DNA from: Fundidesulfovibrio putealis DSM 16056
Lineage (GTDB): Bacteria > Desulfobacterota > Desulfovibrionia > Desulfovibrionales > Desulfovibrionaceae
NCBI RefSeq assembly: GCF_000429325.1
Contig: NZ_AUBQ01000003.1
Location: 1-64,000 of the forward strand
Direction of reading: 5' to 3'
DNA: 64,000 bases
Under the pieces are notes generated by a model. It did no database searches. It was not told the DNA's origin and saw only the letters and a program-made list of their open reading frames with translations. Position numbers and translations under genes: made by a program. Of the stretch, positions 1-20,880 are shown piece by piece. Within the stretch, counting starts at the first letter, position 1. Each line of letters starts with the position of its first letter.

Positions 1-255
1 TTCAAGACCTCAGAGGATGAGGATTTCCATGATCTGATCGCGGAGCGGTACGAGCGGTGCCCGACGATCATCACCAGCAATCTGGACTTCTCCGAATGGG
101 GAGAAGCCTTCAACAACAAGCTCTTGGGGGCCGCGACCCTGGATCGCTTGCGGCACGGAGCATACAAGGTGGTCCTCGAAGGTCGAAGTTTCCGAAGCTC
201 CAGGGAAGAGGCCATGATCAAAAACTGCGTTGCCGGTGCAGGGGAAAACAACTAG
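1..255 (+). CDS. istB: IstB-type helper ATPase of an IS21-family element (C-terminal part)
   Basis: Frame 1 is open from the window edge to a TAG at 253-255. It reads as the C-terminus of IstB, the AAA+ ATPase that works with the IstA transposase in IS21-family transposition. Visible family signatures are the run ERCPTIITSNLDFSEWGEAF, then LLGAATLDRLRHGAYKVVLEG and a basic RSFRSSR tail. The N-terminal part with the Walker motifs lies left of the window. Codon use is GC-richer than the AT-rich phage genes that follow. The minus-strand frame over the same bases is a shadow. I am sure of the family and cannot say whether the whole gene is intact. Confidence 0.9.
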   Translation, partial: FKTSEDEDFHDLIAERYERCPTIITSNLDFSEWGEAFNNKLLGAATLDRLRHGAYKVVLEGRSFRSSREEAMIKNCVAGAGENN

Positions 256-293
256 ATGTTTAACACGTCCGAAGCCCGGAAACGCTGATCCAA

Positions 294-336
294 GTGGCTC
301 CATTAGGGGCGGACATGGGTGGCTCCATTAGGGCGG
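294..336 (+). repeat. Paired terminal repeats of the IS21-like element
   Basis: GTGGCTCCATTAGGG occurs at 294-308 and again at 319-333, 25 bp apart, each followed by a GCGG run. IS21-family ends normally carry such multiple short repeats bound by the transposase. Having both copies within 55 bp of the inferred end supports the end call at 345. Confidence 0.75.
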
Positions 337-680
337 TCAATGACACTGCTCGCCGTCGTGTCTTCCACCAACTTGTCAGCGGTCATCGTCCCATCAGGCG
401 CAACCGCCGCGTTCGCCGTGATCGTTGCGCGGGTCTTCGTCCACGCCGCGTTGCTGAAGTCCTCCGACGGGTACAGCAGATTCGTCCGCTGCTCCTCGAT
501 GAGCAGACCCTTACAGATGCCCGTGAGGGGGTCGTGGTCATATCTTGGTTTATTATTGCCTACAATTCTCAGTTTACCAGTTGAATCTGTTACAGTTGCT
601 GATGAAGCTCTTGTATAACTCAGTAATGGATGCAAAGTTTTCTTTGGAATAAAATTAAAAATTGGTTGTGGATAACTCAT
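303..680 (-). pseudogene. Phage tail fibre/spike protein, truncated by the IS element
   Basis: The ATG at 680 has a good Shine-Dalgarno sequence (GGGAGATTAA before ATG). The first 65 or so residues include SYTRASSATVTDSTGKLR and LLIEEQRTNLLYPSEDF, a pattern common in phage tail or carbohydrate-contact proteins with a following concanavalin-like domain. The frame runs into the IS at base 345, so the last residues (VIDRPNGATHVRP) are element-encoded and the natural C-terminus is lost. Codon use changes abruptly near base 540: AT-rich codons before it in the gene, GC-rich codons after, as if the distal half came from a GC-rich phage. The remainder may survive on the left side of the IS. Confidence 0.75.
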
Positions 681-7642: not shown

Positions 7643-8731
7643 TTAATAATTTGCATTAACTCGATCTGAACCGGAAACGCCTGAACCTGAGCCTAAACTC
7701 CAGTCGACGCCTGGTTTTGCACCATTAATGAATGTGGTAGTTGTTCCACCGAGCATTCCGCCCAGGCCAGCACCTAGAGCTGTTCCAATACCTGGGACAA
7801 CTGAACCGACTACGCCGCCGAGAATTGTTCCACCAATTCCACCGAGAGCACCCAAGGCAGAGCTTCCACCGCCTTCGCGTTGCTTGGCCATGGAAGCAAT
7901 TTCTTGTTGTGTCTTCTGGTCCTGAAGCGGATCAGCGTTTTGCCAGAAAGTGTTATATCGATTAAAAATCCTGTCATTTTGGCTAGAATCCCAGGTTGCA
8001 CGTCTCCATTGATCTTCATATGGTGCAGCAAGAAGCTGATTATATTGACCAGCTGCGTTTGTTGCCCAATTTGCCTTGTTCAAGTTGTAAGAGTTGTTTG
8101 CTTGAGTATTAGCCATATTATAATTGTTGTAATTTTGATTCTGGCTAAAATTTGCATTATTTTGTGCAAGATTTTCCTGCAAGTTCATTGAATTCAAGTT
8201 CTGGTTTTCATTGACCTTTGTGTCATAAAGAGACTTGTCGAAACCAGCAGCATATTGATTGTCTTGTTGCTGCATTCCAAATCTATTTGTGGTTGCATTT
8301 GAAGAGTTGGTTGCCATGGTGTTTAAATAATTCTTGTAAAGGTTGTCATTGGCTTGATTTGCCATGATTGAAGACCCATACATGCCATTATTTGCCATAG
8401 TAGAGTTTAAGTTCTTTTGTCCTGAAGCTAAGGCTTCTTTTGCTGCAATTTCACCAGGGGTTCTTAGTGCAGTTTCATAATCTTTATAATCACCTTGGGA
8501 CAGTCTTTCATAAGTTGGAGTTGCACCACCGTAAGCCGATCTTTGTGGTGCACTCTGCCAAAATGCCATTTTATAGTCAGGTGCAGAGACATAATTTCCA
8601 GGGTTGTAGTCCAGTGGGTTAGCTGCTTTTTCAGTCCAGTTATTCCAAGCAGGAGCATCAACCGTTTTATTCCATGGGAAATTGTCGGTTTGCATGTTTG
8701 ACATCATATATGCACTGTTAATTGTACTCAT
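7643..8731 (-). CDS. Internal virion protein with Asn/Gln-rich middle and glycine-rich C-terminus
   Basis: A 362-residue protein of unusual composition. Residues 105-235 are dominated by Asn, Gln, Tyr and Ala (NQNYNNYNMANTQANNSYNL), with helical repeats. Residues about 285-335 are Gly/Val/Leu-rich (GALGGIGGTILGGVVGSVVP), a glycine-zipper type membrane-active segment. Together with the two larger genes downstream it looks like a set of ejection proteins. The start ATG 8731 has GAGGATTATT in front, and a SATAAATA motif lies 31 bp upstream. Function inferred. Confidence 0.5.
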   Translation of the reverse strand: MSTINSAYMMSNMQTDNFPWNKTVDAPAWNNWTEKAANPLDYNPGNYVSAPDYKMAFWQSAPQRSAYGGATPTYERLSQGDYKDYETALRTPGEIAAKEALASGQKNLNSTMANNGMYGSSIMANQANDNLYKNYLNTMATNSSNATTNRFGMQQQDNQYAAGFDKSLYDTKVNENQNLNSMNLQENLAQNNANFSQNQNYNNYNMANTQANNSYNLNKANWATNAAGQYNQLLAAPYEDQWRRATWDSSQNDRIFNRYNTFWQNADPLQDQKTQQEIASMAKQREGGGSSALGALGGIGGTILGGVVGSVVPGIGTALGAGLGGMLGGTTTTFINGAKPGVDWSLGSGSGVSGSDRVNANY

Positions 8732-8761
8732 AATAATCCTCGTTCAACATTATTTCATCAG

Positions 8762-8768
8762 TATTTAT
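8762..8768 (-). promoter_or_regulatory. SATAAATA motif before the internal-protein genes
   Basis: The coding strand reads AGATAAATACTG in the gap between the nozzle gene and the internal virion proteins, 31 bp before the ATG at 8731. It is one of six intergenic copies in the prophage and a candidate phage-specific promoter core. No initiation data are available. Confidence 0.35.
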
Positions 8769-10250
8769 CTAGCCATTTACAACAGCAAAATTCAGGTCAA
8801 TGTTTTTGATTTTTACTCTACCAAGTTCAATATCAATAATGATGGACATTGCTTGATCTCGATAACTGTTTTTTATGTCAACATATGAGAAGGCATCGCC
8901 GTAAATATAAATGTTGGCATCATGCAGATATCCGTTGGCATCATGTAAAAATCCTGCATAGTTTGGTTCCCAATTGTATAATACTCGCTCAATTCTATTT
9001 GTTCGATCTAAAACAAGCACTTTGCCTTTGGTGTAGTCAATTTGTTCAAGGTAAAGTCTGGTTTCCTTAAGAAGAATTTCTTTTGGAAAAGTGAAGCATT
9101 TTGTTACGAGTTTTGACCGAATTTCTGTAAAAGTATTTAGCTGTAATTCATCTCTGCTTAGGTTTGTTGACCTATAAAGTTTTCCATTTGAGTCTGAGAA
9201 ATAGGTCAAATCTTTGCCGTTACAAATTGAAGAGATACGAATGCCATAATCAAATATTGTGAAAGTGTTTAGGTGTGGGTGATAAATCAAGACATTGTCC
9301 ATGCCTTCGACAATCATAAAAAGAATTCCGTAAAAATTTGACCAAACAGCTTCTTTGATTAATTTTCCATTCAGTAATGGACTAACTTTAGTTCCGAGAA
9401 GGTTAAATTTTACGTCTCCATGCTCTTGCACAGTTGCAATTGAATTAATTCCTGTGTCAGAACCAAAGACAAGGTCATTACCCACAGGTTCAATTGAAGT
9501 TTGGCTTGTGCATCTATTGTTTGAAAAGATGGGATAAACAGAAAAGTCAGATGCACTAATACGGTAGGCTTTTCCATCTTCTTTAAAAGCAACAACATAG
9601 TCAGAAACGATTCCAATTCCTGTTACTTTTCTACCATTTCCGTATCCTGCTCTAACACCAACAGCACCATTGTTTGTGTCCCAATTTGCTTTGTTAAATG
9701 GACCAGAAAAATATACGGCATCAAGTTCGCCCGATGCTTCAGAGTTACAAACAAGTCTTCCATTAATTTCTTCTAAAATGGTCACATATGAAGGCGAGGT
9801 TGTAATATCTGAGACGGTTGTGCCATTCCATGAACGAAGACATGTTCCTCTGTCTGCAATAATTAACTCATTTGAGTAGGTAATTAATGAAGGGATGATA
9901 GTTGAGTTTGTCAGGTCAGTAATTTTCTGCCAGGATAAAGTTTCAACATCGTCAATAATTGTAGACTTGAGGTAAAGTAATTCACCATTTGAAACAGCGA
10001 TTAAATATTTCTCAGTTTCGTTTTTCACGTATTCATAGAGTTTGTCGATTGGATGGGTAAGTGCAGGAACGTCAACAATTTTAATACCCATTCGAGTTGT
10101 TAAATATTTTTCGTGATTGCTATAGAACAAATTCACACAGCTTTGTAACTCATTGTCAGCAATTGTTGTTGATGGCTGAGAGACGTTAATTCCTCCCTCA
10201 AAAGACAAAGATGCAGATTGTGAATTACTGTTTTTGTTACCTACTTTCAT
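8769..10250 (-). CDS. Tail nozzle/stabilisation protein (beta-propeller type)
   Basis: A 493-residue beta-strand-rich protein. It opens SASLSFEGGINVSQPSTTIA, then NELQSCVNLFYS, as in podovirus nozzle or packaged-DNA stabilisation proteins (P22 gp10-like or T7 gp12-like group). Repeated strand-turn units follow (RSWNGTTVSDI, AYRISASDFSV, LVFGSDTGINSIATV), consistent with a propeller. It overlaps the adaptor gene by TAATG, so stoichiometric expression with the adaptor is likely. It would sit below the adaptor ring and close the DNA channel. Family assignment is by position and N-terminal style. Confidence 0.65.
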   Translation of the reverse strand: MKVGNKNSNSQSASLSFEGGINVSQPSTTIADNELQSCVNLFYSNHEKYLTTRMGIKIVDVPALTHPIDKLYEYVKNETEKYLIAVSNGELLYLKSTIIDDVETLSWQKITDLTNSTIIPSLITYSNELIIADRGTCLRSWNGTTVSDITTSPSYVTILEEINGRLVCNSEASGELDAVYFSGPFNKANWDTNNGAVGVRAGYGNGRKVTGIGIVSDYVVAFKEDGKAYRISASDFSVYPIFSNNRCTSQTSIEPVGNDLVFGSDTGINSIATVQEHGDVKFNLLGTKVSPLLNGKLIKEAVWSNFYGILFMIVEGMDNVLIYHPHLNTFTIFDYGIRISSICNGKDLTYFSDSNGKLYRSTNLSRDELQLNTFTEIRSKLVTKCFTFPKEILLKETRLYLEQIDYTKGKVLVLDRTNRIERVLYNWEPNYAGFLHDANGYLHDANIYIYGDAFSYVDIKNSYRDQAMSIIIDIELGRVKIKNIDLNFAVVNG

Positions 10251-10852
10251 TACATCCAGCCACGATTAGAGATAACAATAGGGTCAACTGTTTTGTAAGT
10301 TTCTAGTATTGCTGTCTCAAAATCTTTCATAAATTCTACGTCCGCACTGATATCCATTTCATCAACGTTTTTGGTTCTTAAAGTCAGGTATTCAATAATC
10401 AGCATGTCTAGTTTTCCGTCCCAAGGGGTTTCACCAGTGAGAACAATTTCTTCAGGGACAAGAAGAGAATAGTAAAAGAGGTTTAGCTTGGATGCTTCAA
10501 CTGGAATTCCTAAAACCCAAATTTTGTTGTCAATTATAATGTAATTAGAAACAGGGGTTGCATATTGAATTTCATTGAATTGCTCAATGGTTCTGTGAAT
10601 GAGTTGTGTATTGCCATTGAAGAGGGCAATTGGAGACATAAAGTCATATGGCAAATCATATTCTTTTGTTCCTGCTACAACATCAATTTCATAAATTCTC
10701 TTACCGAGTTCAATTCCATTTCTACGAATTAAATGTGATGCCCTGACAAATGCTCTGCGCATGAAAGATAGAAGTTTTTCGTCAGTCCATCGTGTGTTAA
10801 TTTCGTCTTCAAGTTCTTGACGAACATATTTGATTAAATCGCTAATTTTCAT
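10250..10852 (-). CDS. Head-tail adaptor protein
   Basis: A 200-residue protein with the arrangement of podovirus adaptor/tail tubular A proteins: an N-terminal helical part (ISDLIKYVRQELEDE, then RWTDEKLLSFMRRAFVRASH), a beta region with GTKEYDLPYDFMSPIALF and a C-terminal helical part (DMLIIEYLTLR). Such proteins form the dodecameric ring between portal and nozzle. Position between capsid and nozzle genes agrees. The ATG at 10852 is preceded by AGAGGCAATA. Confidence in the role is good; I do not assign a named family. Confidence 0.7.
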   Translation of the reverse strand: MKISDLIKYVRQELEDEINTRWTDEKLLSFMRRAFVRASHLIRRNGIELGKRIYEIDVVAGTKEYDLPYDFMSPIALFNGNTQLIHRTIEQFNEIQYATPVSNYIIIDNKIWVLGIPVEASKLNLFYYSLLVPEEIVLTGETPWDGKLDMLIIEYLTLRTKNVDEMDISADVEFMKDFETAILETYKTVDPIVISNRGWM

Positions 10853-10860
10853 TATTGCCT

Positions 10861-11181
10861 CTATTTGATGATAATTTTGTGTGAGTTTGAGCCAGGAGTT
10901 ACATAGTAATTAGCAGTTGTGAACTCTGGATTTGCCGCAAGGAACTTTAGAACATCTTTTTCATTGTTCATGTCGTAGCCTTCTTGTTCAGCTCTAAGTA
11001 TTGCGACATATGGAATTGAAGCTACTTTTTGAAAATGTCTGTCTTTGGTAAATCCATTGCATGAATTCATTCTCTCTATGTAGTTTTCTTCAAGTAGAGG
11101 AATGTTGTTTGATGTGATTTTTGTTGAAATTTCAAAATCTTCTTTTCCAAGCATATTGACGTTGGTTTGTTTTTCAATCAT
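10861..11181 (-). CDS. Small phage structural-region protein, unknown
   Basis: A 106-residue protein, mostly polar, ending in ANYYVTPGSNSHKIIIK. I do not recognise it. It lies between the capsid and the adaptor and begins a new transcription unit: a strong terminator stands after the capsid gene and a SATAAATA motif follows it, 25 bp before the ATG. The ATG has TTTAGGAGAAGTT upstream. A minor head or completion protein is possible, but nothing in the sequence shows it. Confidence 0.5.
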   Translation of the reverse strand: MIEKQTNVNMLGKEDFEISTKITSNNIPLLEENYIERMNSCNGFTKDRHFQKVASIPYVAILRAEQEGYDMNNEKDVLKFLAANPEFTTANYYVTPGSNSHKIIIK

Positions 11182-11205
11182 AACTTCTCCTAAATTTAAT
11201 GAAGT

Positions 11206-11212
11206 TATTTAT
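11206..11212 (-). promoter_or_regulatory. SATAAATA motif after the capsid terminator
   Basis: The coding strand reads TCATAAATAACTTC. It begins 19 bp downstream of the capsid terminator stem and 25 bp before the next start codon. A terminator followed at once by this motif is also seen at 19147-19186, the best support for a promoter role. Confidence 0.45.
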
Positions 11213-11230
11213 GACACCTGACAAAAATAG

Positions 11231-11263
11231 GAATGCTCACCAGCCGTAAGCCAGTGAGCATTC
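11231..11263 (-). terminator. Rho-independent terminator after the major capsid gene
   Basis: GAATGCTCAC and GTGAGCATTC form a perfect 10-bp stem around a 13-nt loop. On the minus strand the stem is followed by CTATTTTTG. It ends the capsid transcript about 30 bp after the stop codon, as expected for a gene that must be made in great excess. Confidence 0.85.
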
Positions 11264-11292
11264 GCATTAAGGAGGGGATATGAAAGGAACTA

Positions 11293-12231
11293 TTAAACTC
11301 TAGAGATGTTTTCCATCTTAAAGTTGGCTGCTTCGTTGTAGCACTTGAGGGTTGCTTCTGCTGAAATTACAACAGGAGTTACAAGTCCTTGTTTTGCTTG
11401 TCTTTCGACTTTGGTTTTCTTAAGCCAAGCGATTTCCCATTTTTCTGGTTCCAAAATCAACATGTAGTCATACTTTACAGTTGAAACGTCTTTTGGTTCC
11501 ATCCAACGTGAAGTGTGAACCTTAACCATACCAAATTGTGATTGGTAAAAATCTACTGCCTGAATAACAGTTTTCTTGCTTGCTTCTACATTTTGACTAA
11601 GTCTACCATTGCCTACGAAACCTGAGATTGTTCTAGCAACTGCAGGAGGAGCAAGAACAACTGAAGGATTTCCACCTGAAGACCATGCAGCTTGGATGCC
11701 GTCTTGGAATAAAGGTTCGGTCAAGTCACATGCGTTTGTGGTTGTTCCACCGAAGTTATAAGTATTGGTTGTAACAAAACCAAGAGCGCCTTTAAGCTTA
11801 CCACCGGTTCCAGATACGTGAGCTGAAGGAGCAGCAGAGTTGTTAATGAATGCATATTCAGCATCTTTGCTGATTTGACGAAGACCCTTTTCGATGAGTC
11901 TTTCAATTTCAGAAACACGACCATATTTAGCGGCACTTTCCATTGAGTCTGTAATATCTACACGGTCAGCAAAAATCTGAGTATAATTGTACTTACGAAC
12001 AGGTTGAGTTACAGCAGATGCGCTGCCAGTCCATTCTTCAGCTTTAGCGTTTACGCCAGGAGTTCTGTCAGAATCTTCTAGCCATTCTTCTTTAACGGAG
12101 GTAGCTTTTCCTTTCTTTACAAGGTTCATAAAAACTGTATCGGTTGGAGAGATTGTATAAATTGCATCTCCTACAGATTCTTTGATGTTTGACATACCAT
12201 TTGTCATAAAGGTTGAAACTTCATTAGCCAT
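11293..12231 (-). CDS. Major capsid protein, SU10/DUF5309-like
   Basis: A 312-residue protein. The N-terminus (NGMSNIKESVGDAIYTISPT, then DTVFMNLVKKGKATSVKEEW) has the arrangement of SU10-type capsid proteins: a short arm, the phrase ISPTDTxF, then a Trp-containing strand leading to a variable loop. The rest (FADRVDITDSMESAAKYGR, AYAEF-type helix, VVLAPPAVARTISGF, YDYMLILEPEKWEIAWL) fits an HK97-fold subunit. It sits between scaffold and adaptor genes with its own terminator. SU10- and phiEco32-type phages have elongated heads, so this virion might also; that is inference. Start ATG 12231 with GAGGATTTTTATA upstream. Confidence 0.8.
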   Translation of the reverse strand: MANEVSTFMTNGMSNIKESVGDAIYTISPTDTVFMNLVKKGKATSVKEEWLEDSDRTPGVNAKAEEWTGSASAVTQPVRKYNYTQIFADRVDITDSMESAAKYGRVSEIERLIEKGLRQISKDAEYAFINNSAAPSAHVSGTGGKLKGALGFVTTNTYNFGGTTTNACDLTEPLFQDGIQAAWSSGGNPSVVLAPPAVARTISGFVGNGRLSQNVEASKKTVIQAVDFYQSQFGMVKVHTSRWMEPKDVSTVKYDYMLILEPEKWEIAWLKKTKVERQAKQGLVTPVVISAEATLKCYNEAANFKMENISRV

Positions 12232-12258
12232 TATAAAAATCCTCTTAATTAATGTATT

Positions 12259-13230
12259 TTATTTTCCAAATCCTAAATCTTCAACAAGTGTGCTCAGGTA
12301 TGGTGCCCAATTTCCTTTAATTGCTTGTGCCTTAGCTTCTGACTTCTTTTGTTGCTTAGTTTTCACTGCAACATCGTCAACTACTGCTCCGCTCTTTTCG
12401 AGAATTGGTGCTTGAGGTGCTTTTTCTTTTCCAACGCCATTTGGCATATTGGATTCAGATTTTGTTTCACCATCAATTTGGTTTCTAATTCTAAGGTAAA
12501 CTTCCTTATATGCATCAACATCAGAGTCCAAAATTTTAGCAATTTGCTCTTGAACTTTTGCAGGCTGGCTTTCAATGTATTTGAAAATACCTTCCTGAAC
12601 TTTTGCATATAGAGGATCGCTTTGAGCCTCTTGTATAGTTTTATTTATGTGTTCTTTGTAAACATCTTGTTTTTGTTGGTCGGTTAATTTTGAAATTTCT
12701 TCTTGAACAGCTTTCTTTGCTTCAAGGGCACTATCGTAACGAATTGCATCATATGGATCGACAGGTCTTTCACCAAGTCCATAGTTATTGTCTTTTGGTT
12801 CTTGCTTGGAATAGTTAAGAATGTGTTGTGCAAATTCTTTATCAGTTTGGAATTGTTCAACTAAACCTTGAAATGCGAGAATCTTCTCTTTTTCTTTGGC
12901 AATGTCTTGGTATTTACGTTGATAACCACTTTCTAAATTTTTGGCCTGAATGATAAAGCCTTTCTTCTCGTTTTCATTAAGAGAATTATAAGCTTCTTTC
13001 ATTTCTGTAGACCAATGGGCAGGAGCCTCAAAGGTTTCAGTTTTTGGTTGTTCAACTTTGGTTTCAGGTTCTTTAATTTCTTCTTTTTGTTCAACTATTT
13101 CATCGTCATCATTGTCATCATGTGTTGATTCTGTTTTAAATTCTGGGAAAAGTTCACTTACCGCACTTTGTGTAAATTCTGCGGTAGCATCATTTGTACT
13201 ATCATTTTGAATATCTAATTCTTCGCTCAT
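12259..13230 (-). CDS. Scaffolding protein
   Basis: A 323-residue highly charged protein directly upstream of the capsid gene. The first 85 residues are acidic and disordered (THDDNDDDEIVEQKEEIKEP), the middle is helical (GYQRKYQDIAKEKEKILAF, AVQEEISKLTDQQKQDVYK) and the C-terminal end is basic (KQQKKSEAKAQAIKGNW), the usual layout of podovirus scaffolds in which the basic tail binds the capsid protein. It acts during procapsid assembly and leaves before packaging is complete. The start is an ATG at 13230 with AGGAGATACAAATTAG upstream. Confidence 0.75.
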   Translation of the reverse strand: MSEELDIQNDSTNDATAEFTQSAVSELFPEFKTESTHDDNDDDEIVEQKEEIKEPETKVEQPKTETFEAPAHWSTEMKEAYNSLNENEKKGFIIQAKNLESGYQRKYQDIAKEKEKILAFQGLVEQFQTDKEFAQHILNYSKQEPKDNNYGLGERPVDPYDAIRYDSALEAKKAVQEEISKLTDQQKQDVYKEHINKTIQEAQSDPLYAKVQEGIFKYIESQPAKVQEQIAKILDSDVDAYKEVYLRIRNQIDGETKSESNMPNGVGKEKAPQAPILEKSGAVVDDVAVKTKQQKKSEAKAQAIKGNWAPYLSTLVEDLGFGK

Positions 13231-13260
13231 CTAATTTGTATCTCCTGTGTGGTTAGATAA

Positions 13261-13494
13261 CTAAAGTATTACGTTGCCTTGTGGCTTGCTTTCACCCTCG
13301 TCTTTTGATGAGGATATGAAAGTGTTATAAATGTCGCCCACAATAATTTTCTGTGCCTGTAAGAGAGAAAATTCATTTTTTTCATGTGGTGCCAAATATT
13401 CAATCTTTTCTCTAATCGTGTTAAATGTTGTTTCAAAGATAAATTGGAAAAGTTCGTTTTCCAAAACTTCTCTAGCCAAATCTTGTTTATTCAT
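13261..13494 (-). CDS. Small phage protein between portal and scaffold
   Basis: A 77-residue helical, charged protein (MNKQDLAREVLENELFQFIF). No family recognised. It has a very strong ribosome binding site (GGAGGTAGACA before ATG) and a SATAAATA motif 20 bp upstream. The GC-rich phage remnant at 21.7 kb also has a small helical gene immediately after its portal, beginning MNHHELELLSRRGEE, so the position is shared between two unlike phages. Confidence 0.6.
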   Translation of the reverse strand: MNKQDLAREVLENELFQFIFETTFNTIREKIEYLAPHEKNEFSLLQAQKIIVGDIYNTFISSSKDEGESKPQGNVIL

Positions 13495-13513
13495 TGTCTA
13501 CCTCCATGCTTGT

Positions 13514-13520
13514 TATTTAT
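13514..13520 (-). promoter_or_regulatory. SATAAATA motif at the end of the portal gene
   Basis: The coding strand reads GCATAAATAACA and overlaps the portal stop codon, 20 bp before the ATG at 13494. It is one of six intergenic copies of the candidate phage promoter core. Confidence 0.35.
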
Positions 13521-15655
13521 GCAGGTGAGACTACATTGATATTAACTTGGTTCTTAAGTAATTCCATTTCTCGTTCATGGTTCATTTTCATTAGTGCGAT
13601 TTCTTTTTCTACTGCTAGTTTCATTTCGGCTTTCTTTAATTCAAGGTTCATTTCCATTTGAATCTTGGCTTCTTCAAGCTGCATTTCGCTTTGCTTGAAT
13701 TGTGCTTCAAGTTGTAGCTTGTCGATGCCTTGTGTCTTTTGTTTCAAGTTGGCATTTTCTTGTTGCAACATTTGCATTTGTTGAGACATTTGTTGCATTT
13801 GACCATTTAATTGTGTGATGCCTTGGTTTTGTCCTTGTGCAATTTCTTGTTCTGAGAACATGAATCTTTCATAAGGAATTTCTTGCAAACGTCCTTTGTA
13901 TTCAATTGCTTCTCTAACTTTTTGCAAATCAGTAAGTCCCATTTGAAGAAGAGGACCTTTTACAGCCATTGCAAGGAATTGATCAATTTGACCTACAATG
14001 AATGCCTTATCTTGAGGACCAATGCCGATTACCACGTTGACTGTATATTCTCCCCTGAGGTCATCAGGATTGATTTTGTAATTTGTTCCAACAATATCTA
14101 TAACATTAGTAGGAGGCCAAGTCTGGTTGATAAAGATGAAGTCTCTTACAACCTGTGACAATACTCTGCCTAAACGCTTGGCAATCAATTTTTGCTTTTG
14201 CTGAGAAGCAGAAGTTATCATTTGAATGCCTGTTGCTGTTTTGTTCAGTGAATTGGCATCGAGGCCCTGGTTGTAGCGAGTTACCCCAGTCTTGTTTTCG
14301 ACCATGCCTTGGGCGAACTCCATAAAATTGAATGCAGCTTGAGAAGGTGCAGGAGCATCAAACCAACCAATTTTGTTAGGATTACCCATGATCGTGTCAA
14401 AAGGCTTTCTGCGGTCGAGTGCTGCCCTCATTTGAGGATCGTCAGTAATTGGGTTTTTCCAAGTGCTCATTGCTGTGCCGTCTTGGATAAAGCGAATGAT
14501 GTTTGTTTGAACTTTTTGGTCGTTCTCTAGAATTTCAGTAAATGGAATGCCTGTAATCTTGTGAGGTTCAGGATTAATTCTGCCAAGTCTGAAAGGAGGT
14601 CTTTTGTAAGGATTTTCAGAGACAGAAAGAATAATGTCATTACATGAAACGATAATTGCATTTTCAAGAAGTCCATCACCATCAAGGTCTAATTTGACAT
14701 ATTCCTCTTTAATGAAAACTTCAGATGCGGGAAGTGCTTCTTTTTTGTCAGGATAACTCTGGGTGTCTGAATAATCGCCTGAATTATCACCTTCATAAAG
14801 TGAATTAACTTCATCCAGAATGTTGCCAGCGTCAGAAGTTGTATTGCCAAGTGCATCTTTAATTTTGGCTAAAGAACCTTTGCGATAAATCCCGGCGGCT
14901 TCTCTACGTTTAATATAGTCAAGATTTCTTTTTACCCAATGTGCAACATATGGTGCCGTGTTAACATCTGTGCTGCCAGGAGTGATGTAGAATTCCCAAG
15001 GTGGAATATTTTCCATGATAGGGCCAGAATACACTATATCTTTCTTGACAACTTTGATGTTCTTATAACGTGTAATTACTTGACCATCTCCAAGGTCATA
15101 TTCAACAGGGGTATACTTTGAAACAATGAATTCTTCACTCAGTGCAGTAAATGTTGCTTCGTCAATTTCTTCGTCAATTGTTTCAGTTTGTGTTTTATAT
15201 TCATTGGTAAAATATGTTTTTAAAACACCAAATTCATAAATGAGACAATTTTGAATCCAGGCGTCAAGTTGTTCTTCGCCTTCGTTCTTTACCAGCATTT
15301 GATACTTAATAAGTTGTTGCAAATTGTCTGCATTGTTGCCGTCTTTTGACTTTAGAGTGAAGAAGTCTCCAGTAAAAATTTCAAGCAAACCAGGAATTGA
15401 GCCTTGCACAACATCCCAAATTACTGACTTTACAGTTTGTGACCAGCCTTCTCTTTCATTTCCATATGGTTTTGCTCTATATTGCTTGTACCATTCTTGT
15501 CGTTTTGTTGACCTGTCATTTTGATAGTTTTCAGCAGAAACTCTTAAGTCATTAAGATGATTTTTAATTTCATCATCGGTAATGGAAATTGAAGTTACAT
15601 TTGAATTGTCTGTCACCTCGATTTCTTTGGTTGCATTATCTAGTTGTGTACTCAT
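13517..15655 (-). CDS. Portal protein (podovirus type)
   Basis: About 712 residues. The N-terminal half carries portal-type phrases (NYQNDRSTKRQEWYKQYRAK, SVIWDVVQGSIPGLLEIFTG, ENIPPWEFYITPGSTDVNTA), and residues 370-470 include GRINPEPHKITGIPFTEIL and NQGLDANSLNKTATGIQMI, the wing and stem region of the 12-subunit portals of P22-like phages. The C-terminal 130 residues are a long Gln/Glu/Met-rich coiled coil (QMQQMSQQMQMLQQENANLK), a barrel-like extension. I use the ATG at 15655 because AAGGAATATT precedes it; an in-frame ATG at 15670 is the alternative. It is the DNA gate of the head and the terminase docking site. Confidence 0.85.
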   Translation of the reverse strand: MSTQLDNATKEIEVTDNSNVTSISITDDEIKNHLNDLRVSAENYQNDRSTKRQEWYKQYRAKPYGNEREGWSQTVKSVIWDVVQGSIPGLLEIFTGDFFTLKSKDGNNADNLQQLIKYQMLVKNEGEEQLDAWIQNCLIYEFGVLKTYFTNEYKTQTETIDEEIDEATFTALSEEFIVSKYTPVEYDLGDGQVITRYKNIKVVKKDIVYSGPIMENIPPWEFYITPGSTDVNTAPYVAHWVKRNLDYIKRREAAGIYRKGSLAKIKDALGNTTSDAGNILDEVNSLYEGDNSGDYSDTQSYPDKKEALPASEVFIKEEYVKLDLDGDGLLENAIIVSCNDIILSVSENPYKRPPFRLGRINPEPHKITGIPFTEILENDQKVQTNIIRFIQDGTAMSTWKNPITDDPQMRAALDRRKPFDTIMGNPNKIGWFDAPAPSQAAFNFMEFAQGMVENKTGVTRYNQGLDANSLNKTATGIQMITSASQQKQKLIAKRLGRVLSQVVRDFIFINQTWPPTNVIDIVGTNYKINPDDLRGEYTVNVVIGIGPQDKAFIVGQIDQFLAMAVKGPLLQMGLTDLQKVREAIEYKGRLQEIPYERFMFSEQEIAQGQNQGITQLNGQMQQMSQQMQMLQQENANLKQKTQGIDKLQLEAQFKQSEMQLEEAKIQMEMNLELKKAEMKLAVEKEIALMKMNHEREMELLKNQVNINVVSPA

Positions 15656-15683
15656 AATATTCCTTGTCATTTCAGTCTGTGAT

Positions 15684-15690
15684 TATTTAT
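15684..15690 (-). promoter_or_regulatory. SATAAATA motif before the portal gene
   Basis: The coding strand reads AGATAAATAATC in the short gap between the large terminase stop and the portal start, 29 bp before the ATG at 15655. It is one of six intergenic copies of the candidate phage promoter core. Confidence 0.35.
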
Positions 15691-17115
15691 CTAAAGAATT
15701 ACGTTTGGTGATTTGTAGCCATCATTGTATGAATTTACATAAATTCGATTTTGCGCAGGAGAAGAATAATTATAAAGAGTGAGATTGAATGCGTCTGCAA
15801 GGTTGGGTGAAGGAACACCTCTTGCTTTCATTTCGTCTTTGCCTTCAACTTTCAATTTCCCATTTGATGTATATTTGTAAGTTGGTCCGCAAAGCTCGTC
15901 AGTTAATTCTTCAACGAACTTACAAGTTCCATCAATTGAGCAAGTTTGTTCTTCAAAGAATTCTTTGGCATTAAACCATAGTTCATCTCTTAGCCTGTTG
16001 TATAATTCGCTTTGAGAAGCTTTTTCTGCTACGTTAACTCCAATTGTTGGTACATTATATGGATAGACTGGCAACATGTCGGCTACACCAGCACCTAAAC
16101 CACAAGCGTCAACATAAATTCTATCAAACATTCCTCTTCGATAGAGGGCGACAACCCTTCCAATTGATTCGTCAATTCCAAGACCTTTCCATTGGTCAAT
16201 ATAAATTATCTTTCCACCTTGACGAATTACGATTGCAGTTGCGTCGTCACCAAAACGAGCAACGTCTAAACCTGCAATTTTTGGAGAACTTGAATATGAA
16301 ACTTCTCTGTCGTAAGCTGATTCGATAAGACTGCGAGAAATTATGCTGTCATCGTTTAATTCTGGAAATTCTCCTAAAACTCTAACTCGATATTCATTTG
16401 ATTGAGCACCATATTTCTTTTCAAATCCTTCAACATATTTTGAAGTTACAATTGGAGAGTCTAGGCAGTTAAAAGCTAAACGAGTCCAGTCATATTTAAT
16501 TTTAGGGTGCATTTGTGTATCATAGAAATAGCCGCTGTTTCTTGTAGGGTTTGAACAAAGTATGATTATTGCACCTTCAGTTGAAAGTGTGCCTTCTGCG
16601 ACTTCAAAAACTTTGTTGTCTACGCCTGAAGCTTCATCAATAATTACCATCAAGTTTTCAGCGTGGAATCCTTGCAATGCTTCTGGTTTGTCTTTTGCAG
16701 AAGTTCTTGCAACAGCAAATCGGAACTTTTCTTCACCAATTATATACATTCTATCATTGTTAATTCCGATAGAATCCTTAAATGGTTTATAGAGATAGCG
16801 TCTGTGCCATTTGGACAATTCAGCCCAAAGAGCATCGTGCAGCTGTGCGGCAGTGGTAGCGGTGCAGGGAATCTTTACGTCTGTGTGGAACAGCAAGAAC
16901 CAGTGAATGAGCCACGCTAGGCTTGTTGTCTTGCCTGTACCGTGGCCCGATCTGACAGAAACCTTGGCGCCTCTGACTGAGGCAGCCTTAAGAAGACTTT
17001 CTTGTTGTGGGGTAGGTGTGACACCAAAACAAGTTTTTACAAAAATTACCGGGTCTGTAGCCATCGCCAACAAGGCGTCTCTATCGAGTTTGTTTATATC
17101 TTTATTTTTAGCCAT
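15691..17115 (-). CDS. Terminase large subunit
   Basis: A 474-residue packaging motor. Walker A is SGHGTGKTTSLAW near residue 56, Walker B and catalytic Glu are LMVIIDEASG near residue 155, and the coupling motif is CSNPTRNSGYF near residue 187. The C-terminal nuclease domain opens with AGLDVARFGDDATAIVIR (first metal-binding Asp), has IYVDACGLGAGVADML and ends with PNLADAFNLTLYN. All motor and nuclease motifs look intact. It cuts concatemeric DNA and drives it into the head through the portal. The ATG at 17115 has AAGGATAAAA upstream. Confidence 0.95.
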   Translation of the reverse strand: MAKNKDINKLDRDALLAMATDPVIFVKTCFGVTPTPQQESLLKAASVRGAKVSVRSGHGTGKTTSLAWLIHWFLLFHTDVKIPCTATTAAQLHDALWAELSKWHRRYLYKPFKDSIGINNDRMYIIGEEKFRFAVARTSAKDKPEALQGFHAENLMVIIDEASGVDNKVFEVAEGTLSTEGAIIILCSNPTRNSGYFYDTQMHPKIKYDWTRLAFNCLDSPIVTSKYVEGFEKKYGAQSNEYRVRVLGEFPELNDDSIISRSLIESAYDREVSYSSSPKIAGLDVARFGDDATAIVIRQGGKIIYIDQWKGLGIDESIGRVVALYRRGMFDRIYVDACGLGAGVADMLPVYPYNVPTIGVNVAEKASQSELYNRLRDELWFNAKEFFEEQTCSIDGTCKFVEELTDELCGPTYKYTSNGKLKVEGKDEMKARGVPSPNLADAFNLTLYNYSSPAQNRIYVNSYNDGYKSPNVIL

Positions 17116-17117
17116 TT

Positions 17118-17612
17118 TTATCCTTGGTTAGAGCCGAAAATATAACTCAAAACATTTGGTCCATATTGCTGATATAGATTTTTCACGTTAGAATAATAAT
17201 CAGGAGTCATCTTAAATTCATCACCATATCCATAAGTGTTTAGTGGTCTTAAGTTCACATTCTGAAATGTTGCATTGCCTTTTTCATCTTGTCCTGTTTG
17301 CATCTGAAATGGAGTTTCCCATTTGGCATTCCATTTCTTGTTTAATTGTTCGCTTTCGGCTGGATCAAGTGACATTGGTTTTCCAGTTGAGGGTAAATCT
17401 CCACCACTTTGAAGAATTTTATCCCATTCAGTTTTATTGTTGAGATATTCATTTTGTTGTCTTTGTGCTGCCCAAGTTGTTTGTCTATCAATAGGGTCTT
17501 GATTTTGATATTGACCGTAAAGAGAGTTAAAAAGCTGAGAAAAAGAATTATCATCAAACGCCTGTCTCTCATTTTGCGGTACTGCTGTTAATCCATTGTT
17601 TAAAAGTCCCAT
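17118..17612 (-). CDS. Unknown phage protein between the terminase genes
   Basis: A 164-residue polar protein rich in Asn, Gln, Tyr and Trp (SQLFNSLYGQYQNQDPIDRQ, TTWAAQRQQNEYLNNKTEW). I do not recognise it. It is coupled to the small terminase by a TAATG overlap with GGAGATGAATA before the ATG, and the large terminase starts 3 bp after its stop, so it belongs to the packaging operon. A virion or packaging accessory role is possible. No membrane or signal segment is seen. Confidence 0.55.
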   Translation of the reverse strand: MGLLNNGLTAVPQNERQAFDDNSFSQLFNSLYGQYQNQDPIDRQTTWAAQRQQNEYLNNKTEWDKILQSGGDLPSTGKPMSLDPAESEQLNKKWNAKWETPFQMQTGQDEKGNATFQNVNLRPLNTYGYGDEFKMTPDYYSNVKNLYQQYGPNVLSYIFGSNQG

Positions 17613-18142
17613 TATTCATCTCCATCAGTAGTTTCTTCAATAATTTCACCATCACGTTCTTTAGCTTCTTGTACAAGTTTCCAAAGTGATTTAACGTCAA
17701 AGTCAAAAGTTTGTGCTTGTTCAGTTTTCTCAACCCACTTGTGCTTATTCTTTAATGCAAAAGCAGCGATTGAAGCTGATTGCTTACCAGCTAGTGCGCC
17801 TTCAAGTAAGTTTGCTTCAATTTCAGTTCTCATTCTAACAAGTAATTCTGACCTGTACTTATTAAATGCCCATTGATCTTCAATTGACTTTTTATAAGTT
17901 TTGTTTGCTGCTTCATCGAATTCCTCTTGAGTCATGTTAATACTGAGCAACAGTCTTGCCATTGTCATAGGGATTTCTTCATCACGGCATGTTTCAAGAA
18001 ACAATTCACAGAGAGCTTGAAAGTCTAAACAATTACGAATAATCTTTGATCTTACTAAGCCTGTTTCAGTAACAACATCACCCTTAGATGTAGTCCATGT
18101 TCTTGGACGGTTAGTCCAATGTATCTTTTTATCTTCTTCCAT
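17612..18142 (-). CDS. Terminase small subunit (putative)
   Basis: About 176 residues, lying between the spanin pair and the large terminase, where short-tailed phages keep their small terminase. It is helical, with SKIIRNCLDFQALCELFLET and LLLSINMTQEEFDEAANKTY, and the segment SIAAFALKNKHKWVEKTEQ resembles the C-terminal part of small terminases (compare the phrase F.LKN..GWREK). The acidic tail EIIEETTDGDE follows. I take the ATG at 18142 because AAAGGAATTACCG precedes it; ATG 18178 is upstream in frame. It would recognise the packaging site. The call rests on context and the C-terminal motif. Confidence 0.65.
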   Translation of the reverse strand: MEEDKKIHWTNRPRTWTTSKGDVVTETGLVRSKIIRNCLDFQALCELFLETCRDEEIPMTMARLLLSINMTQEEFDEAANKTYKKSIEDQWAFNKYRSELLVRMRTEIEANLLEGALAGKQSASIAAFALKNKHKWVEKTEQAQTFDFDVKSLWKLVQEAKERDGEIIEETTDGDE

Positions 18143-18407
18143 CGGTAATTCCTTTAAATTGGTTTTCGTAACAATCAATTGTAGAATCTTGGTCTTTGCA
18201 ATAATTCTTCAATGTGTTAATTGTGCTCAACATTTCCTTTTGTCTTTCAAGTGAATCAAATCTAGATGTTCCAAGTTTCCCAAAAGATGGTTTCTCAGGT
18301 CTTGGGCACTCATAAATGTCATTTGGTTTCTGGTTTTTGAGTGATGAACAACTAAAATTAATTGTCACCAAGAATAGAATTATACATGTCTTCAACTTCT
18401 TTTTCAT
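18129..18407 (-). CDS. Outer-membrane spanin lipoprotein (Rz1-like)
   Basis: A small secreted lipoprotein whose N-terminus is charged, then hydrophobic, then lipobox (KTCIILFLVTINFSC, acylated Cys near residue 20 of the short form). The mature part includes YECPRPEKPSFGKL, the proline-containing stretch usual in o-spanins. Its start lies inside the Rz-like gene in another frame, with a 50-bp overlap. The partner would bridge it to the inner membrane and fuse the membranes at lysis. ATG 18407 is preceded by a weak GGAA; ATG 18419 is 12 bp upstream in frame. Confidence 0.75.
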   Translation of the reverse strand: MKKKLKTCIILFLVTINFSCSSLKNQKPNDIYECPRPEKPSFGKLGTSRFDSLERQKEMLSTINTLKNYCKDQDSTIDCYENQFKGITDGRR

Positions 18408-18675
18408 TTGATATTCCATCTATACGTCTTTGGTTCTCGTTAAATTGTTTTGCATTTTTCTGAATATTCTTTGTGTGTGTTTGAATCGCTTTGACACCTG
18501 TTTTGCATCTATCCAGAGATTCTTTTGCACTCGAAATTTCAGCATCTTTAATCTTAATCTCAGTTTCTAGTTGCTCAATAGTTTTGCTCAAGAAAGCATT
18601 GTAGACAAATAAGCTGATAATTAATGTTACAAGAATTCCAGTTGCGATGATTTTTAGTTTTGTGAAGTCAATCAT
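18358..18675 (-). CDS. Inner-membrane spanin (Rz-like)
   Basis: About 105 residues: a short cytoplasmic start (MIDFTKLK), one membrane helix (IIATGILVTLIISLFVYNAF) and a periplasmic coiled coil (IEQLETEIKIKDAEISSAKE). Together with the overlapping lipoprotein gene it forms a typical two-component spanin. The ATG at 18675 has GAGGATATTT in front; the ATG at 18690 is less well placed. Position just upstream of the small terminase matches the T7-type order of lysis and packaging genes. Confidence 0.75.
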   Translation of the reverse strand: MIDFTKLKIIATGILVTLIISLFVYNAFLSKTIEQLETEIKIKDAEISSAKESLDRCKTGVKAIQTHTKNIQKNAKQFNENQRRIDGISNEKEVEDMYNSILGDN

Positions 18676-18690
18676 AAATATCCTCAACAT

Positions 18691-18697
18691 TATTTAT
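18691..18697 (-). promoter_or_regulatory. SATAAATA motif before the spanin genes
   Basis: The coding strand reads TTCATAAATAATG just upstream of the Rz-like gene. A second copy (TCATAAATATCC, 18672-18683) lies on the opposite strand within the first Rz codons and faces the plus-strand gene at 18696. Two facing copies in 25 bp could be divergent promoters or chance in AT-rich DNA. Confidence 0.3.
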
Positions 18698-19001
18698 GAA
18701 AAAATTCTTAACCTACATTTCACCACTAATCTCAGATGGAGATAAACTGTCTACAACAGCTTTTTGGACTACAATTATTCTGGTGCATTGTTTAATTGTC
18801 TGGTTCGGTATGAAAGAAATACCAACAACCGAATTTCAAGTATTAATTTTATTACTTGGTTATCGGTTTGGTACAAAAGCTGTTTATCAATCGAAGAATG
18901 TGATGGAGCGATGGGTAGAATCGAGGCAAACACCTGAACTTTTAAGATACAAAGCCCAAGCATCAAAAGCAGCTAAAGACTGTGACCAAAATATCGGTTA
19001 A
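18696..19001 (+). CDS. Small membrane protein, possible holin
   Basis: A 101-residue protein with two hydrophobic segments (AFWTTIILVHCLIVWFG at 22-38 and FQVLILLLGYRF at 47-58) followed by a charged tail. Size and layout would suit a holin or a small inner-membrane protein, and it sits next to the spanins. It is the only plus-strand gene I accept in the prophage. I see no convincing Shine-Dalgarno sequence before its ATG, which makes it less certain. Transcription of the spanins from a promoter at 19.15 kb would run antisense to it. Confidence 0.45.
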   Translation: MKKFLTYISPLISDGDKLSTTAFWTTIILVHCLIVWFGMKEIPTTEFQVLILLLGYRFGTKAVYQSKNVMERWVESRQTPELLRYKAQASKAAKDCDQNIG

Positions 19002-19141
19002 ATCTTACTCTTTAGGTATTGTTTGCCATTAATTACAATGACATTTGAATTAGGATTATCAGTTTCAATAGGGTGCAACTCAAACAATATTGCGACCTTT
19101 TTTCTTTTGAATAGATTTAAAAAGTAGTTGATGAGTTTCAT
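18998..19141 (-). CDS. Possible 47-residue small protein
   Basis: An open frame from ATG 19141 to TAA at 18998 encodes MKLINYFLNLFKRKKVAILF followed by a polar tail ending QYLKSKI, an amphipathic basic start. No Shine-Dalgarno sequence is visible and the start is only 6 bp from the SATAAATA motif at 19147, so a leaderless message would be needed. It overlaps the end of the plus-strand gene by a few bases. Weak candidate. Confidence 0.25.
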   Translation of the reverse strand: MKLINYFLNLFKRKKVAILFELHPIETDNPNSNVIVINGKQYLKSKI

Positions 19142-19146
19142 GTCGA

Positions 19147-19153
19147 TATTTAT
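19147..19153 (-). promoter_or_regulatory. SATAAATA motif after the early terminator
   Basis: The coding strand reads GCATAAATATCG and starts 9 bp after the terminator stem at 19162-19186. The pairing of terminator and motif repeats the arrangement beside the capsid gene. It would be the first candidate promoter of the leftward lysis and packaging block. Confidence 0.4.
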
Positions 19154-19161
19154 GCAAAAGA

Positions 19162-19186
19162 AAAGGCAGCGTTCTACGCTGCCTTT
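19162..19186. terminator. Hairpin terminator between early and late prophage genes
   Basis: AAAGGCAGCG and CGCTGCCTTT pair perfectly around TTCTA, with A residues before and T residues after, so it could act in both directions. It stands just after the stop of the small HTH gene at 19191. Confidence 0.85.
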
Positions 19187-19674: not shown

Positions 19675-20880
19675 CTACTTTACGATGGTGAGCTTTGGTT
19701 TAGGTTTCTCTTGTGTTGGTGATTTGCTGAACACGTTACGTACAATCTCAAAGTTCTCAGGTGCAAGATGTGCATATCTCTCTGTCATCCTGATTGATTT
19801 GTGACCAGCTAACTTTGAAACAAATTTTAATGGTACACCAGCTTGAACTAACCATGAACAAAAAGTGTGTCTTAAAGTGTGGAATACAACTCTTTGTCTA
19901 GGATCATCTACATTTTCATTGAGTGCTACATCTTCAACAGCAAGTCTAAATAGTTTCGATATTTGACTCTTTGAGTTCTCGTTATCTTTTCTGAAGACAA
20001 ATTCATTTCTACCTTTTCTCTCTTTTGCACTCAACATTTCATAGAGATCATCACTCATTGGAATTGTTGATGACTCTTTATTCTTTCTATCTCTAGCTGT
20101 AATCATTTTGTGCTCAAGATCAATGTCAGACCATTTCAGCTTGAGAACTTCATTTAACCTGAAACCGCTATGCAGCGAAGTTAATGAGATTTCATAGAGA
20201 TTTTCACTATAACCCTTAGTCTCATTTAACAAGATTTCAGCTTCATCTTTAGAAAGAAACCTATTTCTTTCATTTTGAATAGCTGGCAATTTCAGTTTTG
20301 CCATGTTTACAGGATTTGCACCATCATAAATGTCAAAGTTGATGCAAATGTCATAGATGTGATTGATTAAATTGAATACTCTTGAAATGGTTGCTGGTGC
20401 AAGTTCTGCCTTTATACAGATTCCTTTAATTTTGAGCAAATCAGTGAATGTGACTTCATTTAATCGTTTGTCTCCTATAATGGGATTTACCCATTTCTTA
20501 AATGTAGAATTTACTGAGTTGTTGGACTCTTTTGTCCTGTTTGAGTGAATTTGGTAATCTGATTCAAATATTTCTTGAATCGTTTTATTCTTCTCAAGTT
20601 CTTCTTCTCTTTTGATGCGCTCATCTTCAGCTTGTTGCTTCATTTCTTTATAAGTTACAGGTCCACCACTCAGCAGGTTTTGTTTAATTTCAGCAAGCAA
20701 ATTACCTGCTTTCTCTTCATTCCAACCAGCAGATGCCCAACCTAAACCTTCAGTCTTTGTGACTCCAATTAATTGATAGCGTATTCTGAAATAGCGATCA
20801 GGCTTGCCTCCATGTTTACGAGTTGGGTGTTCACTCCATTGAAGACCTTTGAACTTCTTGGATGTTGTCCAGCCAGGCAT
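19675..20880 (-). CDS. int: Tyrosine-family phage integrase
   Basis: A 401-residue site-specific recombinase. The core-binding domain spans about residues 95-200. The catalytic domain shows the first Arg in LHSGFRLNEVLKLKW (near 240), the HxxR box in VFHTLRHTFCSWL (near 343), the second His/Trp position in LAGHKS and the nucleophile in MTERYAHL (Tyr near 372). All key residues are present. It starts at ATG 20880 behind TGGAGGTCCCT. The gene points into the prophage with its 5' end next to host DNA, as in integrases whose attachment site lies just upstream of the gene. No tRNA is visible at the junction. Confidence 0.92.
   Translation of the reverse strand: MPGWTTSKKFKGLQWSEHPTRKHGGKPDRYFRIRYQLIGVTKTEGLGWASAGWNEEKAGNLLAEIKQNLLSGGPVTYKEMKQQAEDERIKREEELEKNKTIQEIFESDYQIHSNRTKESNNSVNSTFKKWVNPIIGDKRLNEVTFTDLLKIKGICIKAELAPATISRVFNLINHIYDICINFDIYDGANPVNMAKLKLPAIQNERNRFLSKDEAEILLNETKGYSENLYEISLTSLHSGFRLNEVLKLKWSDIDLEHKMITARDRKNKESSTIPMSDDLYEMLSAKERKGRNEFVFRKDNENSKSQISKLFRLAVEDVALNENVDDPRQRVVFHTLRHTFCSWLVQAGVPLKFVSKLAGHKSIRMTERYAHLAPENFEIVRNVFSKSPTQEKPKPKLTIVK

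Follow-up and report, generated by a model that had tools for sequence, protein, structure and literature searches.

ATAAATA boxes of the T4 late type as probable promoters of the lytic genes of a podophage-like prophage in Fundidesulfovibrio putealis

We analyzed a 64,000-nucleotide stretch of DNA from Fundidesulfovibrio putealis DSM 16056 (hereafter the window), which is the start of contig C1 in a 4.7-Mb genome and carries the right arm of an AT-rich prophage. The left arm lies outside the window, at the end of contig C8 (locus L054). In both arms, the word ATAAATA recurs in the gaps between genes, and these sites are very probably promoters. If they are, a factor specified by the phage likely reads them. 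We propose that they serve the late and other lytic transcription units of the prophage. Each promoter would consist of a single TATA box of 7 to 8 bp (N-ATAAATA) at about −12 to −6, with no −35 element; six bases past the box, a purine would serve as the first transcribed base, leaving a short leader. Upon induction, a phage-made specificity factor, either a diverged sigma factor or an unrelated factor, would bring host RNA polymerase to the boxes. This factor would then switch on, independently of one another, the units for lysis/terminase, portal, scaffold-capsid, tail, internal proteins, and tail spike, of which two or three directly follow a terminator. We hold this reading as a whole, T4-late-type promoters of lytic units directed by a phage-made specificity factor, with good confidence.

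Position, enrichment, and strictness of the ATAAATA sites

The two arms hold 13 exact copies of ATAAATA, of which two fall within genes and 11 are intergenic or run across a gene edge. The 11 sites and two terminator-like stems are given below, with right-arm features in window coordinates and open reading frame abbreviated as ORF.

19147 to 19153, minus strand: core preceded by C; predicted +1 at 19141, the A of an ATG
18691 to 18697, minus strand: core preceded by C; predicted +1 at 18685, 10 nt before the Rz-like start at 18675
18674 to 18680, plus strand: core preceded by C; predicted +1 at 18686, 10 nt before ORF 18696 to 19001
15684 to 15690, minus strand: core preceded by G, between the terminase large subunit (TerL) and portal genes; predicted +1 at 15678
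13514 to 13520, minus strand: core preceded by C; predicted +1 at 13508
11206 to 11212, minus strand: core preceded by C, behind the terminator-like stem that follows the capsid gene; predicted +1 at 11200
8762 to 8768, minus strand: core preceded by G; predicted +1 at 8756
L054 9548 to 9554, minus strand: left-arm core
L054 13261 to 13267, plus strand: left-arm core
L054 14779 to 14785, plus strand: left-arm core; predicted +1 at 14791, then a structured leader and a 63-amino-acid (aa) ORF
L054 18726 to 18732, minus strand: left-arm core within the exact T4 octamer TATAAATA
11231 to 11263, minus strand: terminator-like stem 3' of the capsid gene
19162 to 19186, minus strand: terminator-like stem 3' of the small helix-turn-helix (HTH) gene

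An initial annotation of the window had reported six minus-strand copies preceded by C or G, at 8762, 11206, 13514, 15684, 18691, and 19147. All six are present, and a seventh gap copy, on the plus strand at 18674 to 18680, had been missed. These six stand 30, 24, 19, 28, 15, and 5 bp before a start, which makes the earlier statement that most lie 20 to 31 bp away roughly right. Two sites do follow terminator-like stems as described, 11206 after the stem 11263 to 11231 and 19147 after the stem 19186 to 19162, and the in-gene copies placed near 1851 and 12,650 were found at 1851 and 12642. The preceding C or G holds for 9 of the 11 sites (C in six, G in three, T in one, and A in one, at −13); the strict part of the motif is ATAAATA.

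All 11 sites point toward a following ORF, whose start lies 5 to 43 bp downstream at 10 of them if a 47-aa ORF at 18998 to 19141 is counted. The sites at 18674 (plus) and 18691 (minus) form a divergent pair, CATAAATA-N10-TATTTATG, at window positions 18673 to 18698. The site at 13514 overlaps the portal stop codon and precedes a 77-aa gene and the scaffold and capsid genes, that at 8762 precedes ORF 7643 to 8731 and then the internal-protein genes, and that at L054 18726 follows a stem and T-run seen by eye and not listed by the terminator scan. The sites stand at the heads of transcription units, and no copy occurs in the gaps of 27 and 30 bp at the capsid and scaffold genes.

Enrichment was measured in the 60 bp upstream of 42 hand-annotated prophage genes, a count that leaves out the sites at 19147 and 14779. 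ATAAATA stands upstream of 9 of the 42 genes, compared with 1.13 in AT-matched draws, none of 2,000 of which reached 9 (maximum, 6). Markov nulls gave 0.73 (order 2) and 1.25 (order 3), with 9 reached in 0 of 1,000 draws each. ATAAATA is the top 7-mer upstream of prophage genes, where the next of its 21 anagrams has 5 copies and where 0.43 copies would be expected from its own frequency. The 21 one-mismatch variants total 7 upstream versus about 6.4 expected; one-mismatch forms are thus at background, and the word is strict. The longer form SATAAATA (S, C or G) occurs nine times in the window, versus a mean of 1.21 and a largest value of 5 in 100 dinucleotide shuffles. Run on all three regions, a single pipeline put the upstream ratio at 17.7 in the T4 late region and at 23.2 and 17.6 in the two prophage arms.

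Instead of promoters, the sites might be binding sites of a regulator, elements that act on the RNA or in translation, or chance products of AT-rich gaps. Nearly all of the sites do stand close before a coding start, in AT-rich DNA in which, as the initial annotation cautioned, a 7-mer may turn up by chance. In 4 of 300 AT-matched draws, some 7-mer or other also attained a count of 9, so that the word count by itself carries a look-elsewhere chance of about 1%, to which strictness, orientation, and the +1 signal add. Against all of these non-promoter explanations, gene orientation is kept, divergent pair included, and the word heads transcription units and is missing from the gaps at capsid and scaffold. 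The pyrimidine-purine step at +1 and the RNA stem that begins at a predicted +1 (both below) also count against them, and a translational element would not predict a start base. We judge a non-promoter origin very improbable.

A host regulon was tried as a candidate and rejected: SATAAATA occurs 71 times genome-wide versus 61 for the reversed word, little above this control. Contig C28 has two copies of CATAAATA (215755 and 215851, minus strand) and, at a distance of about 0.8 kb, a host Sigma70_r2 match in the same orientation; no gene arrangement was seen that links the copies to this match.

Predicted start sites and promoter architecture

A pyrimidine-purine step occurs at offsets 11/12, the −1/+1 of T4 late promoters, in 10 of the 11 sites, against a background of 0.23 (single-offset P of 3.6e-6). 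This is the best of 87 offsets, the next of which reaches 7, and the one site without the step is that at 13514 (predicted +1 at 13508). The register of −12 to −6 assigned to the box here combines this step with the published T4 register, in which the late box occupies −13 to −6 (PMC1524935). The same offset is the highest of those printed for the 75- to 110-kb late region of T4 (10 of 19; next, 9). Among comparison copies, five of the 15 located at AT-rich ends of other contigs in the genome (seven loci, listed by eye only) have the step, as does one of the two in-gene copies.

Predicted leaders measure 0 to 38 nt at ten sites and 91 nt at the eleventh, L054 14779. At the latter, a perfect 18-bp RNA stem opens exactly with the predicted +1, L054:14791 (14791 to 14808 with 14847 to 14864; z of −7.07; 0 of 200 shuffles), possibly a leader that protects the 5' end. 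Across L054:14779 to 14882, the stem is followed by an AAGGA sequence and then by the 63-aa ORF, which is Cys rich. At 19147, the predicted +1 coincides with the ATG of the 47-aa ORF, which may therefore be a leaderless phage message. This ORF has no known relatives and converges on plus-strand ORF 18696 to 19001, itself 101 aa long, membrane bound in appearance by eye, and without a Pfam match. If the 47-aa ORF is no gene, the site at 19147 points into ORF 18696 to 19001 from behind.

No −35 element accompanies the boxes: TTGACA matches amount to 3.36 versus 3.28 in the null (spacers of 14 to 20, 11 sites). TG is present at 2 of the 11 sites, and sigma-70-like sites are at chance in both arms (53 versus 50.8 and 42 versus 41.9). 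These results bear on whether the sites are ordinary host sigma-70 promoters, in which the housekeeping holoenzyme would recognize the AT-rich box as a −10 element, as reported for lytic LUZ24-like phages. The core does resemble a −10 box, and phage tf has been predicted to carry ten sigma-70 promoters at positions matching those mapped in LUZ24 (PMC3517423). The missing −35 enrichment, the scarcity of TG, and the chance frequency of sigma-70-like sites, however, all speak against it, the register places A at −12 and T at −11, the reverse of TATAAT, and the 7-mer is kept exactly. We consider sigma-70 promoters improbable here.

The prophage and the search for its reader protein

The prophage and its best-matched genes are as follows.

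345 to 21060 of the window: right arm of the prophage, GC content of 0.34 to 0.42 versus about 0.65 in the host
L054:5694 to 19650, end of contig C8: left arm of the prophage
19675 to 20880, minus strand: integrase (phrog_1, 5.9e-57)
15691 to 17115, minus strand: terminase large subunit (phrog_2, 3.6e-45)
13517 to 15655, minus strand: portal protein (phrog_1216, 1e-68)
11293 to 12231, minus strand: major capsid protein (phrog_1328, 2.8e-61)

The minus strand of the right arm carries integrase, small HTH, Rz-like, TerL, portal, capsid, tail, internal-protein, and tail-fiber genes; the labels Rz1, TerS, and scaffold were given by position. The gene order is LUZ24-like, and the portal protein matches those of tf and UFV-P2 distantly (about 25%). 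The prophage, to judge from its genes, looks like a temperate podophage of about 35 kb, distantly related to LUZ24. A TerL search of genome contigs found one locus, in a Planctomycetaceae metagenome-assembled genome.

The first ~345 bp of the window are the end of an insertion sequence, presumably IstB-like, and the same end recurs at four other contig ends. It splits the tail-spike gene (window 1 to 680 and L054:18795 to 20000) where the assembly breaks, and the two gene halves suggest that C8 joins C1 here. At its two ends (L054:~5694 and window ~21053), the AT-rich prophage is inserted in the portal gene of a second, related, GC-rich prophage, so that integration breaks a competitor's portal. 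The left part of the interrupted gene was identified from a search match and the right part by eye from its translation, and a core common to both prophage ends, ATGATCCA, was likewise found by eye. The ORFs of L054:6495 to 15612 are mostly without recognizable function, and no replication or repressor gene was recognized among them. Palindromic GTTTCCCT/AGGGAAC-like repeats, seen by eye, and several GCACTCTGGTC copies, part in gene and part in gap, occupy L054:6060 to 6180, 6770 to 6810, and 10095 to 10150; they are possible operators or origin repeats.

The initial annotation had attributed the motif to a phage factor. A phage-specific promoter is well supported, and its reader may be a phage-encoded sigma. 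A sigma-like gene, which the initial annotation had suggested seeking in the left half, did not appear, as no Sigma70_r2 or T4 gp55 family match falls in the prophage. The 12 genome matches to Sigma70_r2 (PF04542) all lie outside C1:1-21060 and C8:202400-216741. The gp55 family (phrog_234) had no match anywhere in the genome at E ≤ 10, in a search that was positive in 7 of 14 control genomes. A gp55 profile from 45 loci, duplicates removed, gave a best E of 2.6 against six frames of both arms, and gp55 comparisons by hhalign against 43 proteins gave at most 1.3%. General PHROGs scans of 30 prophage proteins named no gp33 or gp45, for which no dedicated search was made.

About a dozen orphan ORFs and eleven promoters give the search for a reader definite targets. 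None of the fold matches of the orphan models has an E below 0.5. The 273-aa ORF at L054:8694 to 9515, folded alone, gave an unusable model (predicted local distance difference test [pLDDT], 40.6). A 180-aa ORF at L054:12380 to 12922 is flanked by two terminator-like stems and preceded by a sigma-70-like promoter, a kind of site found at chance frequency overall, and its helical product is 25% identical to that of the 183-aa ORF at 11694. Its AlphaFold model, from a two-row alignment, has a pLDDT of 78.3 and a predicted template modeling score of 0.48; the best Foldseek E is 1.6, and residues 89 to 180 compare with three sigma chains at Z of 3.1 to 3.5, under the noise level for helical models. 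The 273-aa and 180-aa ORFs have no relatives in the phages searched or in 198 other family genomes, nor any in IMG/VR by short-peptide scans, which detect close relatives only. As one candidate among several, the 180-aa product has a slim chance of being the reader.

The factor might instead come from outside, as a host alternative sigma or as gp55 of a co-infecting T4-like phage, the prophage waiting for its helper. The core and spacing are identical to those of T4 late promoters, no sigma or replication gene was recognized in the prophage, and ten Sigma70_r2 loci of the host exceed the cut-off. The motif, however, is not enriched in the host genome, no gp55 family match exists anywhere in it, and the prophage supplies structural, packaging, and lysis genes of its own. 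We regard an outside factor as unlikely and favor one made by the phage.

Relatives and comparison with known promoter systems

The set of sites is absent from nearly all relatives examined. The relatives in the same host family, whose portal proteins are 33 to 38% identical, have no ATAAATA set; gap sequences were inspected for three of the eight, and a copy at 3842222 in genome G128 lies inside a gene. A wider run covered 160 related loci of at least 4 kb, some of them pieces of one record, with three overlapping patterns. Five loci passed P < 0.005 on at least one pattern (L226, L278, L282, L283, and L288, with L278 and L288 being one record), none of L139 to L154 among them, and four of the five belong to one group. 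Separately, in the prophages L139 to L144 of genomes G128, G148, and G093, the capsid gene is preceded by CAGGACGT or CAGGAAGT repeats; such repeats were not seen before the capsid gene of the prophage in the window.

That second podovirus group (L278, L282, and L283, from IMG/VR), whose contigs we read as prophages, conserves (A/C/G)TAAATA boxes in gaps that parallel those of the prophage (TerL-portal, before scaffold, and tail protein-internal protein). The five L278 sites have N-TAAATA at corresponding places in five of five cases in L283 and four of five in L282, where the missing site was looked for only at its approximate place. In each of the 13 pairs, TAAATA is identical at all six columns, with flanks at 55 to 62%, a conservation figure that is inflated because the sites were chosen for holding the word. 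A PHROGs scan of ten proteins from L283 and L292 found no sigma, and the gp55 profile gave a best E of 4 against the second group and L226.

Several results weigh against our reading, beginning with the look-elsewhere chance of the word count. The pyrimidine-purine offset was noticed in column counts before the formal count, and a T4-like AT-rich stretch after the box is not evident (AT of 0.62 at offsets 7 to 11; prophage average, about 0.62). Neither sequence nor fold searches found a reader protein in the prophage. The same ATAAATA set was found in no relative, with at most one upstream copy in each of 43 loci of at least 8 kb, and single copies stand close before a start in phages without the set (G148, 1171305; G093, 306036). 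Up to ~2.4 of the 160 loci could pass P < 0.005 by chance. In the second group, the first core base differs, being C, A, or G, and the +1 step is irregular.

We put forward a broader proposal more tentatively, as one that could well fall either way and that we hold slightly in doubt. Temperate podophages with a LUZ24-type head may use T4-late-type promoters with a factor unrelated in sequence to gp55 or the searched sigmas. This would mean either a new sigma-like family, encoded by a left-arm orphan gene, or convergence on the T4 late box, and the second group may be an independent branch of such a system. A review of T4 late transcription presents gp55 with the sliding clamp as a feature of the T4-related family (PMC2988020). 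The same box, register, and start rule without a recognizable gp55 would mean either a very diverged new phage sigma or a box that can be read another way. Among the matches listed in the open-access literature, we recognized no paper describing promoters of the T4 late type in a podophage that is temperate or LUZ24-like; the subjects of PMC3184105, PMC9004378, and PMC10458263 are ViI-like, T4-like, and Ackermann phages.

The initial annotation was right to compare the sites with T4 late promoters, which they match in core and spacing and in having no −35 element. The core ATAAATA at −12 to −6 is exact in the 11 sites, the +1 position agrees, many dispersed units are served in both orientations, and one site is the full octamer. 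The CTAAATA variant of Aeh1-type T4 late promoters is also the CTAAATA of the second group (PMC1524935, PMC2988020). The differences are the base at −13, a position that is variable in T4's relatives and is C or G at nine of the 11 sites here, and the setting, a ~35-kb prophage with podovirus genes in which no gp55 homologue was found. The sites would function much as a T4 late promoter set does. Since gp55 was not found at the sequence level and the AT-rich segment is not evident, we do not file the sites as a member of the T4 late system.

The comparison with SU10 and phiEco32, also made in the initial annotation, fits less well. Those podophages likewise place a single short motif 6 to 8 nt before the start of middle and late units, but theirs is tAATGTATAtA, read by a recognizable sigma (PMC4281155), of which we found none here. 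Phage rV5, described as without gp45, gp33, and gp55 homologues, has a late-gene motif called T4-late-like, TggTAaAAtA; it is another word, in 8 copies found by MEME, in a lytic coliphage (PMC3606486). LUZ24-like podophages share the order of portal, scaffold, capsid, and tail-tube genes, but the promoters reported for tf and LUZ24 are of the sigma-70 kind (PMC3517423), whereas the phage in F. putealis is integrated and carries the ATAAATA set.

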